Source: Deltaproteobacteria bacterium
Lineage (GTDB): Bacteria; Desulfobacterota; RBG-13-43-22
Assembly (NCBI GenBank): GCA_016219225.1
Contig: JACRBX010000152.1
Span: forward strand, 1-57,127
Direction of reading: 5' to 3'
Length of the DNA: 57,127 nt
Shown: one piece after another, positions 46,518 through 54,119 of the stretch
Numbering within the stretch: the first letter of the stretch is position 1
How the letters are laid out: the number at the start of each line of letters is the position of its first letter
Program-made: the position numbers and the translations under genes
Notes under the pieces: model-generated
What the model saw: only the letters and a program-made list of their open reading frames with translations
What the model was told of the DNA's origin: nothing
Databases searched by the model: none

Positions 46518-46594
46518 GCCCCCGTAGCTCAGTAGGATAGAGCGGCAGATTCCTAATCTGTAGGCCGTGAGTTCAAGTCTCGCCGGGGGCACCA
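46518..46594 (+). tRNA. tRNA-Arg (anticodon CCT)
   Basis: Complete cloverleaf: acceptor GCCCCCG with CGGGGGC, anticodon stem GCAGA/TCTGT around TTCCTAA, T-arm GTTCAAGTC, encoded CCA at 46592-46594. It marks the border between the core region and the AT-richer accessory region. Confidence 0.96.
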
Positions 46595-46920: not shown

Positions 46921-47463
46921 TTATGCGTTGCAGGTTTGGATACCGAATATAGGTTCATCCAGTCTGTTCATCCATTCTGACAGCTTAAATTCGACTTTTT
47001 TGACTTTCTTGGGGGCCTTTTTGGCGGCGATATCATGAAGAATAGATCGGGAATTTTGGGACAGGACTTTCCCCGTGCTTTCTGATGCATTCATAACATA
47101 GAGCATCCGCAAATTTTTATCATGGGGAGCCGCGATTATTTGTTTTCCGTTCTCCCACCTCGAATAAGTCTCCGGCTCCATGGACAGTGCGGCGGCCATA
47201 TCCTTGCTCTTCATCCCGATTTCTTTACGTAAAAACCTGACCTCCAGTCCGGTTAATAATTCCTTCCTGCAAACAATATTTTTTCCGATCAGTAGATGAA
47301 GCTCATTAAGGTGTGGTATTTCAACGTAAATTTCCCCACACTTTTCGCACTTATATTGAGAAATCCCGGCCAGCCAGATATGATCTAATCCGCTTTCCTT
47401 ATAATGATAAGGACGATTTTTAAGAGTTCCCAATATATTGTCGCATTTAGGGCATCTTTCCAT
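46921..47463 (-). CDS. MqsA/YgiT-type zinc-finger HTH antitoxin
   Basis: A 180-residue protein. Two CxxC pairs at the N-terminus (CPKC and CEKC) form the YgiT-type zinc finger, and an XRE-like helix-turn-helix follows (GMKSKDMAAALSMEPETYSR). I use the ATG at 47463 with GGAGG eight bases upstream; a TTG at 47478 is less likely. It follows its DUF4258 partner with a one-base gap, the order of mqsRA. Longer than E. coli MqsA (131 residues) through a C-terminal extension. It is expected to neutralise the partner and repress the operon. Confidence 0.85.
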   Translation of the reverse strand: MERCPKCDNILGTLKNRPYHYKESGLDHIWLAGISQYKCEKCGEIYVEIPHLNELHLLIGKNIVCRKELLTGLEVRFLRKEIGMKSKDMAAALSMEPETYSRWENGKQIIAAPHDKNLRMLYVMNASESTGKVLSQNSRSILHDIAAKKAPKKVKKVEFKLSEWMNRLDEPIFGIQTCNA

Positions 47464-47464
47464 T

Positions 47465-47758
47465 TTATATTCCTCCAAGGACGGTCACGATGATCAATTT
47501 TGTGTTCTTAATGACGATTGTAATAACACCACCCATATATCCTTCAAGGTCCTCGCCATGAATTTCACAATGGTACTTTTCGGTTCCTTCTTGGTTAAAC
47601 TTAATAATCTTGCCATTTTTCAGTATATGCCGGACATCGCCCATCGTATAATTTCTCTCGACCATTCTTGCTTTAACATGGCCGGAATAAATCAATAATC
47701 CGTGGTCCAAAATTTCCCGGATTTTAGACTCAAGCTCTTCAGCCGTTATATCGACCAT
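47465..47758 (-). CDS. DUF4258 protein, probable toxin (MqsR/RelE-like fold)
   Basis: A 97-residue protein with the DUF4258 pattern: HVKARMVERNYTMGDVRHIL, then YHCEIHGEDLEGYMGGVI and VITIVIKNTKLIIVTV. The family is related in fold to the RelE/MqsR/BrnT group of mRNA interferases and occurs next to YgiT-type antitoxins. No clear ribosome site before the ATG; a TATTTA lies only a few bases upstream, so the mRNA might be leaderless. Its toxin role is inferred from the pairing. Confidence 0.8.
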   Translation of the reverse strand: MVDITAEELESKIREILDHGLLIYSGHVKARMVERNYTMGDVRHILKNGKIIKFNQEGTEKYHCEIHGEDLEGYMGGVITIVIKNTKLIIVTVLGGI

Positions 47759-47986: not shown

Positions 47987-48876
47987 TTAAAGTCGAAAGT
48001 TCAGTTTCTTCTGATAGGCAAGAAAAGTTATTATGTCGTGTTGATTGAAAAATGATTCAGCACGAAATTCATGCATTCCGCCGTTCACATCCGGGAGACC
48101 AAGGCCGAACTCTCCAACCGGGCCGCCCCTCCTCTTGTTCGTATTGCTATCAATCTCCTGCAAGACCATATCCGGTGAGACCAGGGCGAAATTTATCATA
48201 AATTTTCCTGATCTTATAAAATGGCGGCATCTGTTTTCCTGATCATCAGGCTTATTCATCCACCAAGGGGTGCTTACGACCAATGCCATCGGAAGATCAT
48301 GGCTGAATTGGACATACCTACGTCCCGTTGTGACCCACGATTTTTTGTTTCTGTTTTTTAACAGAACAATACTTTCCCATTCAGGTGTGGTATCGAGAGC
48401 TTCTTCCGTGAATTTTTTTCCTCCAAACATAAGGCCTGATGCGCCATAGTTTGCTTCGGCTTCCAGCATTTCCTGGAAATCAGGGTCCAAGGTCTGTGCC
48501 GTATCTCCAAGAAAATAGGGGCGATGCCATTCAAGAAGGTATGTACCGAGTCGTGGAAGGAAGCCCAGTCTTTTTTTGGGGGCGGGAGAGAAGAATCAAC
48601 AAGGATTTGAGCTTCGTCCGGGAGCCAGATGGCGTGAAGATCTATTTTCTTTGCAATATTAACGAGTTTTTGTCCGTTGACTTTTACCTTGTGCCAAAAG
48701 CGTCTAAGGAGGGTGACATCTTCAAGGTCATAGAAATTTCTATCGATATCAAGGTATTCCAAGACATCTTCTATCAAAAAAGGCGGTTTTCTCAGGCCGG
48801 CGTCTTTGAGAACCCTGTTGATGACTTTATCAATCTCCAGACGGGTGGCTTCATCAGGCAATTTTTTTTCTCTCAT
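47987..48876 (-). pseudogene. ImmA/IrrE-type metallopeptidase, frameshifted
   Basis: Two adjoining frames belong to one protein. The first gives MREKKLPDEATRLEIDKVIN through KDWASFHDSVHTFL. The second continues as EWHRPYFLGDTAQTLDPDF, EAEANYGASGLMFGGKKF and on to the stop at 47987. Adding one C near 48532 (CCATTCAAG to CCATTCCAAG) joins them into about 296 residues. The HDSVH stretch matches the HExxH zinc motif with D for E, and EAEAN matches the family's third ligand region. It follows the XRE gene with a 23-bp overlap, as in ImmR-ImmA pairs. A sequencing error cannot be excluded. Confidence 0.75.
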
Positions 48877-49531
48877 CTTTAAGGAATTTTACAAATTCAT
48901 CAAGTGTCACTTTCTCCTCATCCGTCAGATTGGAAAATGACTCTGATTTCGCGGCAAACCTTGACGCCTCTGCCTGAAACTCCGGCGGGATTTCTTTGAT
49001 CGCCCCGGCCAGCGCAGCAAGTTTGCGCTGAGATATTCCATAGAATTTGCTTAATTTATGTAAGATCAACGGAGTCGGACGATAATTGATGCTTCGTTCC
49101 ATAGAAAGGATATCTCTTTTGTCTATTTCCGTCTTTTGGGCGATCTGATCCGGTGACAGACCGAACCTGAGTCTCAATCCTTTCATGACTTCACGAAACA
49201 CGTACTGAATGGTCTGCCGCTGTTCGTCTTCCGATGTCACGTGGACTGTAAGGTGCTTATTCAGCGCTTTGGCTATACGGCTCAGCATTGATAATGAATG
49301 GCCGTTATAATCCGCGTCTTCCAGGCGGCTGATTACCGACTGCGTTGTGCCGACCAAATCGGCAAGTTCTTTTTGGGTCATACCGGTTTCCTGGCGCAGA
49401 TCATAGATCATCTGGGCGACCTCGGCATTGACCCTTTCGGCTTGTAGTGAAGCCTTTCTTCCTGCGTCGTCTCTTATGTAGCGCCGGTGCAGAATTTCAA
49501 CAGCATTCGTTGATTGGTTCTTTTTCCCCAT
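48854..49531 (-). CDS. XRE-family antitoxin/repressor with two HTH domains
   Basis: About 225 residues from the ATG at 49531, which has GAGGGGG upstream; a GTG at 49540 forms a GTGA overlap with the toxin frame and is an alternative. The first helix-turn-helix (MTQKELADLVGTTQSVISRL) with its leading helix is HigA-like. A second one (LSPDQIAQKTEIDKRDILSM) follows at about residue 130. The gene lies between a HigB-like toxin frame and an ImmA-like peptidase and is the only intact member. It probably binds the two dyads at 49,924-49,971. Confidence 0.87.
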   Translation of the reverse strand: MGKKNQSTNAVEILHRRYIRDDAGRKASLQAERVNAEVAQMIYDLRQETGMTQKELADLVGTTQSVISRLEDADYNGHSLSMLSRIAKALNKHLTVHVTSEDEQRQTIQYVFREVMKGLRLRFGLSPDQIAQKTEIDKRDILSMERSINYRPTPLILHKLSKFYGISQRKLAALAGAIKEIPPEFQAEASRFAAKSESFSNLTDEEKVTLDEFVKFLKDERKKIA

Positions 49532-49536
49532 GATTT

Positions 49537-49902
49537 TCACCCCCTCACTGTATGCTTCATGGGATTGCTTTCAAATTTCTCCTTTCGAAGGATGGCAAGA
49601 TCGATCTCTTTCGGCGGTACTTCATTGCCTTCCTTGGTTAATCAGCTTACTATAATACACTGATTTTTATAGAAAAAATATAACATCCGGTATTGGATTC
49701 TATTTAAGGCCGCTCGCAGCTCATATATTTTGTCTCTGAGATAATCTGCAAACGGCCGTCGTAATTCATGGCCGTTATCGGCTAACAGCTCAATGCGGAC
49801 TATACACTTATCTTGAGCCTTTGGCGGCAAACCATCCAGCCAATCGCTCAGCGGGCATCTCCCATCATCTTCTTGGTATAATAATACGTCAGTTTTTGGC
49901 AT
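49537..49902 (-). pseudogene. HigB/Gp49-type toxin interrupted by an in-frame TGA
   Basis: The frame from ATG 49902 reads MPKTDVLLYQEDDGRCPLSD, then IYELRAALNRIQYRMLYFFY and KNQCIIVS, typical of Gp49/HigB mRNA interferases. It stops at TGA 49642-49644. The same frame then continues with LTKEGNEVPPKEIDLAILRK, which matches the usual family end, to TGA 49537-49539. So the gene has one internal stop codon and loses about 34 residues, including the conserved C-terminal helix. The other upstream residues of the longer frame (to 50016) do not look like part of the protein. Confidence 0.75.
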
Positions 49903-49923
49903 ATTACACTCGATTTGATTTAT

Positions 49924-49971
49924 CAATATAGCAATATTGTGATGTCTTGTCAAGAAAAATATCGCAATATT
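49924..49971 (-). promoter_or_regulatory. HigBA-ImmA promoter with two AATAT-N4-ATATT operators
   Basis: Minus-strand TTGACA (49948-49953), 17 bp, TATATT (49925-49930). A dyad CAATAT-N4-ATATTG (49924-49939) covers the -10, and a second AATAT-N4-ATATT (49958-49971) lies upstream of the -35. The two centres are 33 bp apart, three helical turns. Confidence 0.8.
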
Positions 49972-50088
49972 ACGATTTATGGCTGAGGATATATAAAAAA
50001 TAGCCCGGAGAACCATTTTTCCACCTGCCTGGTGGAATTATTATTAGAGGAATTAAAGAAGAGAAAATACTGCCGATAAAAATAGTGC

Positions 50089-50116
50089 TTGACAAGATAT
50101 AAAGAAAGGTTAAAAT
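50089..50116 (+). promoter_or_regulatory. strong promoter upstream of NYN gene
   Basis: TTGACA (50089-50094), 16 bp, TAAAAT (50111-50116). Predicted start near 50,123, about 35 bp before an intrinsic terminator. It diverges from the HigB promoter. Confidence 0.7.
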
Positions 50117-50154
50117 TTAAATATCATCCCTTTGTGGTCTCGTGCCACATTGGC

Positions 50155-50184
50155 CCCGCGCTCCCGGTGGACGCGGGTTTTTTT
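50155..50184 (+). terminator. intrinsic terminator in the NYN leader
   Basis: CCCGCG (50155-50160) pairs with CGCGGG (50172-50177) around an 11-nt loop, followed by seven T (50178-50184). It lies between the promoter at 50,089 and the NYN start codon at 50,201, so it can end a transcript of about 60 nt. A small upstream hairpin (GTGG...CCAC, about 50,134-50,148) could be part of a switch. Confidence 0.8.
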
Positions 50185-50200
50185 ATGCCCACTTTAAAAT

Positions 50201-50836
50201 ATGGAAAAATCCTCCCCCAAAAATCGTATTTCTTTTTTTATCGATGGTTTTAATGTCTACCATGCTCTCGAAGACCGGAAATCCTTCCATAAATATAAAT
50301 GGCTTGACTATTCCTCTTTGGCTAAATGTTTTATTGTGTCTAAGGATAAGATAGCAGATATTTATTATTTTTCGGCTTATACGGATTGGGATCAAGGTAA
50401 GGTGGAGCGTCACCGTATCTTTATTAACGCCTTAAAAATGAAAGGAGTAAAAATTATATTAGGGAAATTCAAGCTGAGAGATAAACACTGCCGGGTTTGC
50501 TTTAAAAATTATAAAGCACATGAGGAGAAACAAACAGATGTAAATATTTCCATCCAATTGTTCCAAAATGCCCACAATGACACTTTTGACACGGCCATAT
50601 TAGTAACTGGGGATAGCGATATTATTCCCGCCGTCAAAGCCATAAAGAGGACCTTCCCAATGAAAAAGATCGGGCTTCTAATCCCTATAGGCCGCCGGGC
50701 AGAAGAACTAAAAGAAGAGTGTGACTTTCATATGAAAATGAAAGAGAAGCATCTTAGAGACAGCCAATTCCCCGATAAGATCATCATTGACCACGAAAAT
50801 AATCTTTCTTTAGATCGCCCTTTAACCTGGATCTGA
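50201..50836 (+). CDS. NYN-domain (PIN-like) ribonuclease, LabA/DUF88 type
   Basis: A 211-residue protein. Acidic active-site positions are D in FFIDGFNVYHAL (about residue 15), D in KQTDVNISIQLFQ and the paired aspartates in TAILVTGDSDIIPAVKAIK. A pair of CxxC-like cysteines (HCRVC) is in the middle. NYN proteins are metal-dependent RNases. An in-frame TAA two codons before the ATG fixes the start region, and no ribosome site is visible. Its position right after a terminator suggests controlled expression. Confidence 0.85.
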   Translation: MEKSSPKNRISFFIDGFNVYHALEDRKSFHKYKWLDYSSLAKCFIVSKDKIADIYYFSAYTDWDQGKVERHRIFINALKMKGVKIILGKFKLRDKHCRVCFKNYKAHEEKQTDVNISIQLFQNAHNDTFDTAILVTGDSDIIPAVKAIKRTFPMKKIGLLIPIGRRAEELKEECDFHMKMKEKHLRDSQFPDKIIIDHENNLSLDRPLTWI

Positions 50837-50902
50837 TTTTTTTACCCATTCGGCCGATTAAAATTGGCCACCAACCTGCCCATACCAAAAATTTAAAATT
50901 TA

Positions 50903-51036
50903 TTGACTTTTTATTAATTTAAGGGTAGGAAATCTGTAGTAAATTTACGAAGTTTTCTTGTTGGCAACCTTTTTACCAAGGAGTGTCGATGGAAGAATAA
51001 TAGACCCTATTTCTCAAGTGAGAGGTGGGGTTTTTT
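50903..51036 (+). terminator. short leader unit: weak promoter, three-codon ORF and intrinsic terminator
   Basis: TTGACT (50903-50908) with a weak TAGGAA 17 bp on is followed by an ideal ribosome site AAGGAG (50978-50983) and the micro-ORF ATG GAA GAA TAA (50989-51000). The terminator stem ACCCTATTTCTC (51004-51015) pairs over 12 bp, with G-T wobbles, with GAGAGGTGGGGT (51020-51031). Six T end it (51031-51036). The terminator is well supported; the promoter and micro-ORF are tentative. Confidence 0.6.
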
Positions 51037-51061
51037 ATTCAAAAGATTTGGAGAGGGGAAC

Positions 51062-51334
51062 TTGAAAAGCAAAATCATTGGGATTCCGATTTCATACCTT
51101 ACCCGCTCAAAAAACAGACTGGGTAAAGAGGCCGTTCCCTGTGTGGCATCCTGCCGGTGGCTGGAATTCCCACCAGTATCCTCTGGACACTTCAAGGACG
51201 GTGAATTAATCCTATTGAGAGTAATGACAAAAGATAAATCCAATAGGGACAAAATAATTTGCAGACTTGTCACTACCAGGGAAAACCTGCTGGACGTAAT
51301 AAATTCTATAATAAGGCCCTCCAAAGGCAGATAA
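51062..51334 (+). CDS. hypothetical protein
   Basis: A possible 90-residue protein that I do not recognise. It starts with TTG at 51062 after GGAGAGGGG. It is basic and has no membrane segment (IICRLVTTRENLLDVINSII near the end). Translation is uncertain. It sits just after the terminator at 51,036 in the accessory region. Confidence 0.4.
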   Translation: MKSKIIGIPISYLTRSKNRLGKEAVPCVASCRWLEFPPVSSGHFKDGELILLRVMTKDKSNRDKIICRLVTTRENLLDVINSIIRPSKGR

Positions 51335-53069: not shown

Positions 53070-54119
53070 ATGCAAGAGACGAAAGTCCAAGATGAGACTG
53101 AAAACGAGTTAATGCCTTTTCGATATGCTATATTGAGTTATGGTGCAGATTACCCGGTAGACAGCTTAGTTCATCGGCTTGAAAGGGAAGTTATATTTGT
53201 TCCCGAATTCCAAAGGAAGTACGTTTGGTCTCTCAAACAAGCCTCGCGTTTTATTGAATCCCTTTTGCTTGGACTCCCCGTTCCTGGGGTTTTTTTTGCA
53301 AAAGAAGCCGACACAGGAAAACTCCTAATCATAGACGGCCAACAAAGACTACGGACACTTCAATACTTTTACGATGGATTGTTTATGGGGAAGGAATTTG
53401 CTTTGAAAGATGTCCAAGTACGGTATGAAGGGCTTTCTTTTAAGAAACTTGGAATAGAAGACCAACTTCGCCTCAACGATTCGGTTATCCACGCAACAAT
53501 CATAAAGCAAGAGGAACCCTCAGATGACCAAAGCAGCGTTTACCATATTTTTGAACGTTTGAACACAGGTGGCACTTTATTGCAACCTCAGGAAATAAGG
53601 GCATGTATATTTCATGGCCCTTTTGCAGAGTTACTGAAAGAATTCAATGATTGTCCTGATTGGAGAACAATCTATGGCCCTCCCAGCAAGAGATTAAAGG
53701 ATCAAGAATTGATCCTGAGATTTTTGGCCCTTTTCTTTGATAAAAAAAAGTACAGCCGACCCATGAAAGAATTTCTAAACACGTTCATGGGCTCAAACAA
53801 AATGCTTCAAAAGGTTTCACGGAAATCTCTGACTGAAGCCTTTTTACCAACAGTTAGACTCATTGCTGCCACACTTTCGCAACGAGCATTCCGCCCCGAA
53901 CGTGCTCTTAACGCGGCGGTCCTTGACTCTGTTATGGTTGGAATAGCTCGACGCCTTCAACGCAGTAGCATTAAAGACGAAAAGAAAATTATTCCCGTCT
54001 ACGAAAGCTTGTTGGGTGCCAAGGAATATATGTCTGCGGTGCGAGCAGGAACATCAGATGAACCCAATGTCACATTACGAATCGATAAGGCAGTCAAGGC
54101 CTTTGCCGAATTGCGCTGA
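53070..54119 (+). CDS. DUF262-family (GmrS/ParB-like) protein
   Basis: A 349-residue protein with the DUF262 core: VPEFQRKYVWSLKQASRFIE near residue 49, then LLIIDGQQRLRTLQYFYDG near 88 and FERLNTGGTLLQPQEIR. In defence proteins such as GmrSD and BrxU this fold binds or hydrolyses NTP and acts as an effector-linked nuclease domain. The DUF1524 HNH partner domain is absent; instead a HEPN protein follows with a 1-bp overlap. AAGGAGA precedes the start. Confidence 0.87.
   Translation: MQETKVQDETENELMPFRYAILSYGADYPVDSLVHRLEREVIFVPEFQRKYVWSLKQASRFIESLLLGLPVPGVFFAKEADTGKLLIIDGQQRLRTLQYFYDGLFMGKEFALKDVQVRYEGLSFKKLGIEDQLRLNDSVIHATIIKQEEPSDDQSSVYHIFERLNTGGTLLQPQEIRACIFHGPFAELLKEFNDCPDWRTIYGPPSKRLKDQELILRFLALFFDKKKYSRPMKEFLNTFMGSNKMLQKVSRKSLTEAFLPTVRLIAATLSQRAFRPERALNAAVLDSVMVGIARRLQRSSIKDEKKIIPVYESLLGAKEYMSAVRAGTSDEPNVTLRIDKAVKAFAELR

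Follow-up and report, generated by a model that had tools for sequence, protein, structure and literature searches.

A small RNA gene of ~62 nt is predicted to lie directly in front of the gene for a predicted RNA-cutting enzyme, a NYN nuclease, and the same pairing, sometimes with the RNA repeated several times or turned around, recurs in many bacterial phyla, plasmids, and phages. The layout suggests a widespread toxin held in check by an RNA antitoxin that matches no family in Rfam, although neutralization by the RNA and a role in phage defense are inferred. The locus lies in a 57,127-nt stretch (contig JACRBX010000152.1, assembly GCA_016219225.1) of a Deltaproteobacteria bacterium; this whole stretch of DNA is referred to here as the window.

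The small RNA gene and its promoter

The sequence in front of the NYN gene contains a -35 element, TTGACA (50089 to 50094, + strand), and a -10 element, TAAAAT (50111 to 50116), separated by a 16-nt spacer and matching the consensus at 11 of 12 positions. The RNA is predicted to span ~50123 to 50184, with its start inferred from the position of the -10 element. A GC-rich stem (50155 to 50177) followed by seven T residues (50178 to 50184) constitutes an intrinsic terminator, and only 16 nt separate the T-run from the NYN start codon at 50201, for which no Shine-Dalgarno sequence is visible. These features are as described in the original prediction, which noted a near-consensus promoter and a terminator in front of a NYN ribonuclease and proposed either a ~60-nt RNA that perhaps acts with the nuclease or control of the nuclease by read-through. 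However, that prediction missed a second hairpin (50129 to 50153), located just before the terminator stem and capped by a CNNGU-type pentaloop (50139 to 50143). The leader folds at -25.5 kcal/mol (z = -3.06 against shuffled sequences) and is present as a single copy in its genome. By local statistics alone, promoter-like sites in this AT-rich region are no more frequent than in shuffled sequence (10 found, 9.1 expected), and a simple terminator scan did not list the terminator stem, presumably because of its bulge. Thus, the case for the leader rests on its conservation.

The NYN protein and its surroundings

The gene at 50201 to 50836 (+ strand) encodes a protein of 211 residues that matches the Pfam NYN domain (53.9 bits) and the PADLOC profile PDLC04163 for the candidate defense family HEC-09 (188.2 bits, E = 3.2e-56). 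Residues D15, N18, E109, D113, D138, and D140, which include the acids typical of NYN/PIN-like active sites, are invariant or nearly so among homologues. The AlphaFold2 model has a pLDDT of 95.8, and the only convincing match among solved structures found with Foldseek is 2qip, a Vibrio NYN protein (E = 7.9e-10). 2QIP is also among the nearest structural matches of a CRISPR-associated NYN protein of the Bacteroides fragilis type III-B system, which has catalytic Asp residues and a demonstrated Mn-dependent cleavage of ssRNA (PMC11346440). That protein, however, is encoded in a CRISPR locus and is proposed to trim crRNA, and no paired small RNA was noted in the parts of that report consulted. 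Some plasmid-encoded HEC-09 NYN proteins (OW968256.1, OW970225.1, and others) are annotated as "6-hydroxy-3-succinoylpyridine 3-monooxygenase HspA", probably a misannotation.

The NYN gene is accessory, being absent from the two same-genus genomes searched, and the stretch that follows tRNA-Arg(CCT) (46518 to 46594) looks like a toxin-antitoxin/defense island. Just downstream of the tRNA, a gene for a DUF4258 protein and one for an MqsA-family antitoxin (NCBIfam TIGR03830) form a probable toxin-antitoxin pair (46921 to 47758, - strand). A Gp49/DUF891 (HigB-like) toxin gene beside an HTH antitoxin-like gene (48854 to 50016, - strand), divergent from the NYN module, forms a probable type II pair. 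Farther along, a GmrSD_N/DUF262 protein (53070 to 54119, + strand) matches PADLOC NsnA (238 bits) and PD-T4-2_A (191 bits). A second, similar layout is found at 50901 to 51334 (+ strand), where TTGACT and a hairpin with a T-run (51002 to 51033) precede a 90-residue orphan ORF at 51062, for which only one weak homologue was found in 148 genomes.

Conservation of the leader

Homologues of the NYN gene from Desulfobacterota, Elusimicrobia, KSB1, Eisenbacteria, Chloroflexi, Leptospira, enterobacterial plasmids, and (pro)phages carry a counterpart of the RNA, and HEC-09 homologues down to ~30% identity in several phyla retain it. The closest homologues (loci L018 and L019, 68-70% identity) and those at 54-58% identity (L020-L022, several phyla) carry almost the same leader at the same place: ATCATCCC, stem 1 with a CNNGU-type loop in most, GG(C/T)CCC, stem 2, GGG, and a T-run. 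TTGAC-type elements also recur at the same place in homologues. More distant NYN genes, from Chloroflexi, Leptospira, Klebsiella, Aeromonas, Pseudomonas, and Xanthomonas plasmids and from viral contigs, keep the layout with different stems. (A scan of viral contigs with the single window protein found nothing, whereas an alignment query gave 80 loci.) A distant FIDGSN-type NYN gene is preceded by two hairpins that share the loop sequence UCAUACGUGAC (L016, 1414 to 1475). Small plasmids carry NYN with no constant protein partner.

A terminator, defined as a stem at or below -10 kcal/mol plus a T-rich tail, lies within 130 nt upstream of the catalytic Asp codon in 144 of 158 distinct NYN genes, compared with 91 of 518 other ORFs in the same contigs (p = 5e-66). 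Because the controls are mechanical ORFs rather than curated genes and the NYN set is phylogenetically related, this p value is descriptive. A few homologues (L069, L033, L115, L112, L054, and L014) show no evident RNA in the region read. In one of these, a Thiothrix plasmid (L112, 1657 to 2669), the NYN gene instead overlaps an upstream ORF with HTH-like sequence; a protein partner may have replaced the RNA. In addition, one lineage of E. coli plasmids (L027-L030) has only a palindromic terminator and a longer, unaligned upstream region.

Covariation and searches with a covariance model

In a near-gapless MAFFT alignment of seven close leaders, 11 of 19 base pairs change on both sides, including 7 of the 10 pairs of hairpin 1, and 92% of cells pair, compared with 80% for shuffled alignments and at most 50% for slid structures. 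A covariance model built from these seven sequences (R1) finds, with E <= 0.01 in 91 loci, only leaders in front of NYN genes. In the model-fitted alignments of all matches to E = 1, 17 of 19 pairs are compensated, all 10 pairs of hairpin 1 have changes on both sides in one of them, and 0 of 500 shuffles reach the covariation score. The model-fitted alignments lean towards the model. MAFFT alignments of divergent leaders misplaced the stems and were not used for pair counts; a stricter automatic two-hairpin classifier failed even on the window and was discarded.

R1 matches the window at 50123 to 50184 with 86.2 bits (E = 1.8e-22), although the window is one of its seven seeds and, like its close relatives, matches by construction. 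In 345 same-phylum genomes, R1 gives three hits below 1e-5, the window's and two others (G310, the contig of L038, with the same leader as L018; and G159, L004), all directly upstream of HEC-09 NYN genes. Six weaker hits (E = 1e-3 to 1e-2) have no NYN gene nearby and look like chance matches or ordinary terminators. A pattern scan of viral contigs likewise gave mostly chance matches. Two phage contigs, L206 (6574 to 6629; 30.6 bits with R1, TATAAT upstream) and L201 (8122 to 8175), carry a leader-like two-hairpin RNA but no HEC-09 gene on the record, which could be a chance match from a large scan or a phage decoy RNA.

Neither the window leader nor the leaders of 20 homologous loci match an Rfam 15 family at the gathering score. 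Rfam does name other small RNAs after a neighboring DUF protein, such as the DUF3800-associated RNAs (e.g., RF02968), which belong to different RNA and protein families. One of these, a DUF3800-IX RNA, lies just downstream of the NYN gene in L067 (2564 to 2625), so two different small RNA genes occur in that one locus.

Divergent RNAs and tandem arrays

In L006, L007, L063, L067, L068, and L152, the RNA lies on the opposite strand and is transcribed away from NYN, with promoter-like elements visible in most. On a quick FastTree tree these loci fall together with L069, in which no RNA was found, and, beside them, L036, whose RNA has the same GAUAGCAUC hairpin but lies in tandem (support of the whole set, 73). 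L164, elsewhere in the tree, is a second case, giving seven divergent loci in two lineages. A terminator transcribed away from the gene cannot attenuate it, so the conserved function of the RNA is not attenuation.

The window's own RNA is one unit, but arrays are present in other members of the family. In five viral contigs (L121, L124, L125, L126, and L131), one promoter is followed by three consecutive units of ~50 nt, each with two hairpins, and only the last has the terminator's T-run. Hairpin 2 is therefore kept where it does not terminate. On small E. coli plasmids (L114 and L229), the NYN gene is preceded by four hairpin repeats of 29-33 nt (TRF period 33) and then the terminator, while L227 and L228 have five repeats. 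The last unit (CCUACGGC..GCCGUAGG) differs from the others (CCUGUGGC..GCCGCAGG) by changes that keep the pairing. Ten of 5426 complete E. coli genomes carry this locus, on plasmids only.

Relation to known RNA-controlled systems

The layout resembles that of type III toxin-antitoxin systems (ToxIN; also CptIN and TenpIN), in which a promoter, a small antitoxin RNA, and a hairpin terminator precede an endoribonuclease gene on plasmids and phages. The E. coli plasmid loci satisfy three of the four criteria used for ToxIN loci (PMC8860590) and the fourth, a toxin ORF, with an unrelated nuclease. However, the nuclease is NYN/PIN-like rather than of the ToxN fold, the window has a single unit, and the RNA is divergent in some loci. 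The RNA is one or two plain hairpins; two plain hairpins explain the covariation, and no pseudoknot was found, although none was searched for systematically.

The nearest worked-out analogue is AbiF (Abi_2/AbiD/F) with the ncRNA RCd22 (abiF RNA motif RF03085). There, an ncRNA with a promoter and terminator lies directly upstream of the effector gene in a prophage, the effector is made by read-through, and the RNA neutralizes the toxin in cis and in trans by RNA-protein contact (PMC12373285). The protein in that system is Abi_2, which is linked to ancestral Cas13, and neither the Abi_2 domain nor the abiF motif was detected here. HEC-09 itself is only a protein model in PADLOC-DB 2.0.0, and no text describing an RNA component was found. 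Its anti-phage activity appears to be supported only by its status as a PADLOC candidate, although one paper correlated it with phage susceptibility in Pseudomonas. No description of an RNA-controlled NYN system was found among the open PMC papers searched, which leaves priority uncertain since preprints were not covered.

Possible functions of the RNA

Together, these observations are best explained, with reasonable though not complete confidence, by a type III-like module of two components. In this hypothesis, a promoter makes a ~62-nt RNA of two hairpins; most transcripts stop at the terminator hairpin, and occasional read-through makes the NYN mRNA, so that RNA is in excess. The RNA would bind the NYN ribonuclease in trans and keep it inactive, and loss of the RNA, through phage take-over of transcription or plasmid loss, would free the nuclease to cut RNA and arrest growth or abort infection. 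The promoter-RNA-terminator-NYN layout, its conservation and covariation, the separate transcription unit in divergent loci, the tandem arrays, and the conserved active-site acids are evident from sequence. In contrast, transcription of the RNA, its binding to and inhibition of NYN, the toxicity of free NYN, and an anti-phage or plasmid-addiction outcome are inferred, in the absence of expression, binding, or toxicity data.

Of the alternatives, a role for the RNA as a cofactor or guide that activates NYN or directs it to targets, as crRNA or retron RNA does, is unlikely but survives best. RNA and nuclease form an obligate-looking pair, and the conserved hairpin loops could be a protein-binding handle. 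However, there is no variable guide segment, since loops and flanks are conserved within subfamilies and only the stems vary, with compensation, and NYN proteins can cut RNA without a guide (PMC11346440). A purely cis-acting attenuator, in which NYN or a signal shifts the balance between termination and read-through and the RNA has no trans function, is slightly less likely still. Read-through control is probably also true for the tandem layout, which most homologues share, because the 16-nt gap leaves no room for a promoter between the terminator and NYN. It cannot, however, be the conserved function given the seven divergent loci, and the retention of hairpin 2 in array units that do not terminate and the variable repeat number among E. 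coli plasmids also argue against a purely cis-acting attenuator. Of the two readings in the original prediction, an RNA that acts with the nuclease is strongly supported. Least likely is that the RNA is mainly a substrate or processing target of NYN, since, although the NYN mRNA of tandem loci would contain the hairpins and the arrays look like processing precursors, divergent loci have no hairpins in the NYN mRNA; processing is also part of type III antitoxin biology, so this idea is not exclusive.

Implications

It is more likely than not that these loci represent a previously undescribed superfamily of RNA-antitoxin systems built on NYN/PIN-like RNases, spread over many bacterial phyla, small enterobacterial plasmids, and phages, in which one RNA scaffold occurs as a single unit, a tandem repeat array, or a divergent gene. 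The HEC-09 "single-gene" defense candidate would then really be an RNA-protein module. Relatives occur on hundreds of enterobacterial plasmids (354 plasmid records, 209 of them Klebsiella), and protein-only searches and clonings of HEC-09 would miss the RNA, giving toxic or inactive constructs. Such a system would add a new nuclease fold and a new RNA scaffold to RNA-antitoxin systems, would explain why a defense-candidate nuclease was catalogued without a partner, and would provide, in the E. coli plasmids, a compact locus of under 1 kb with visible repeats in which to test how RNA antitoxins evolve between single-unit, array, and divergent layouts.
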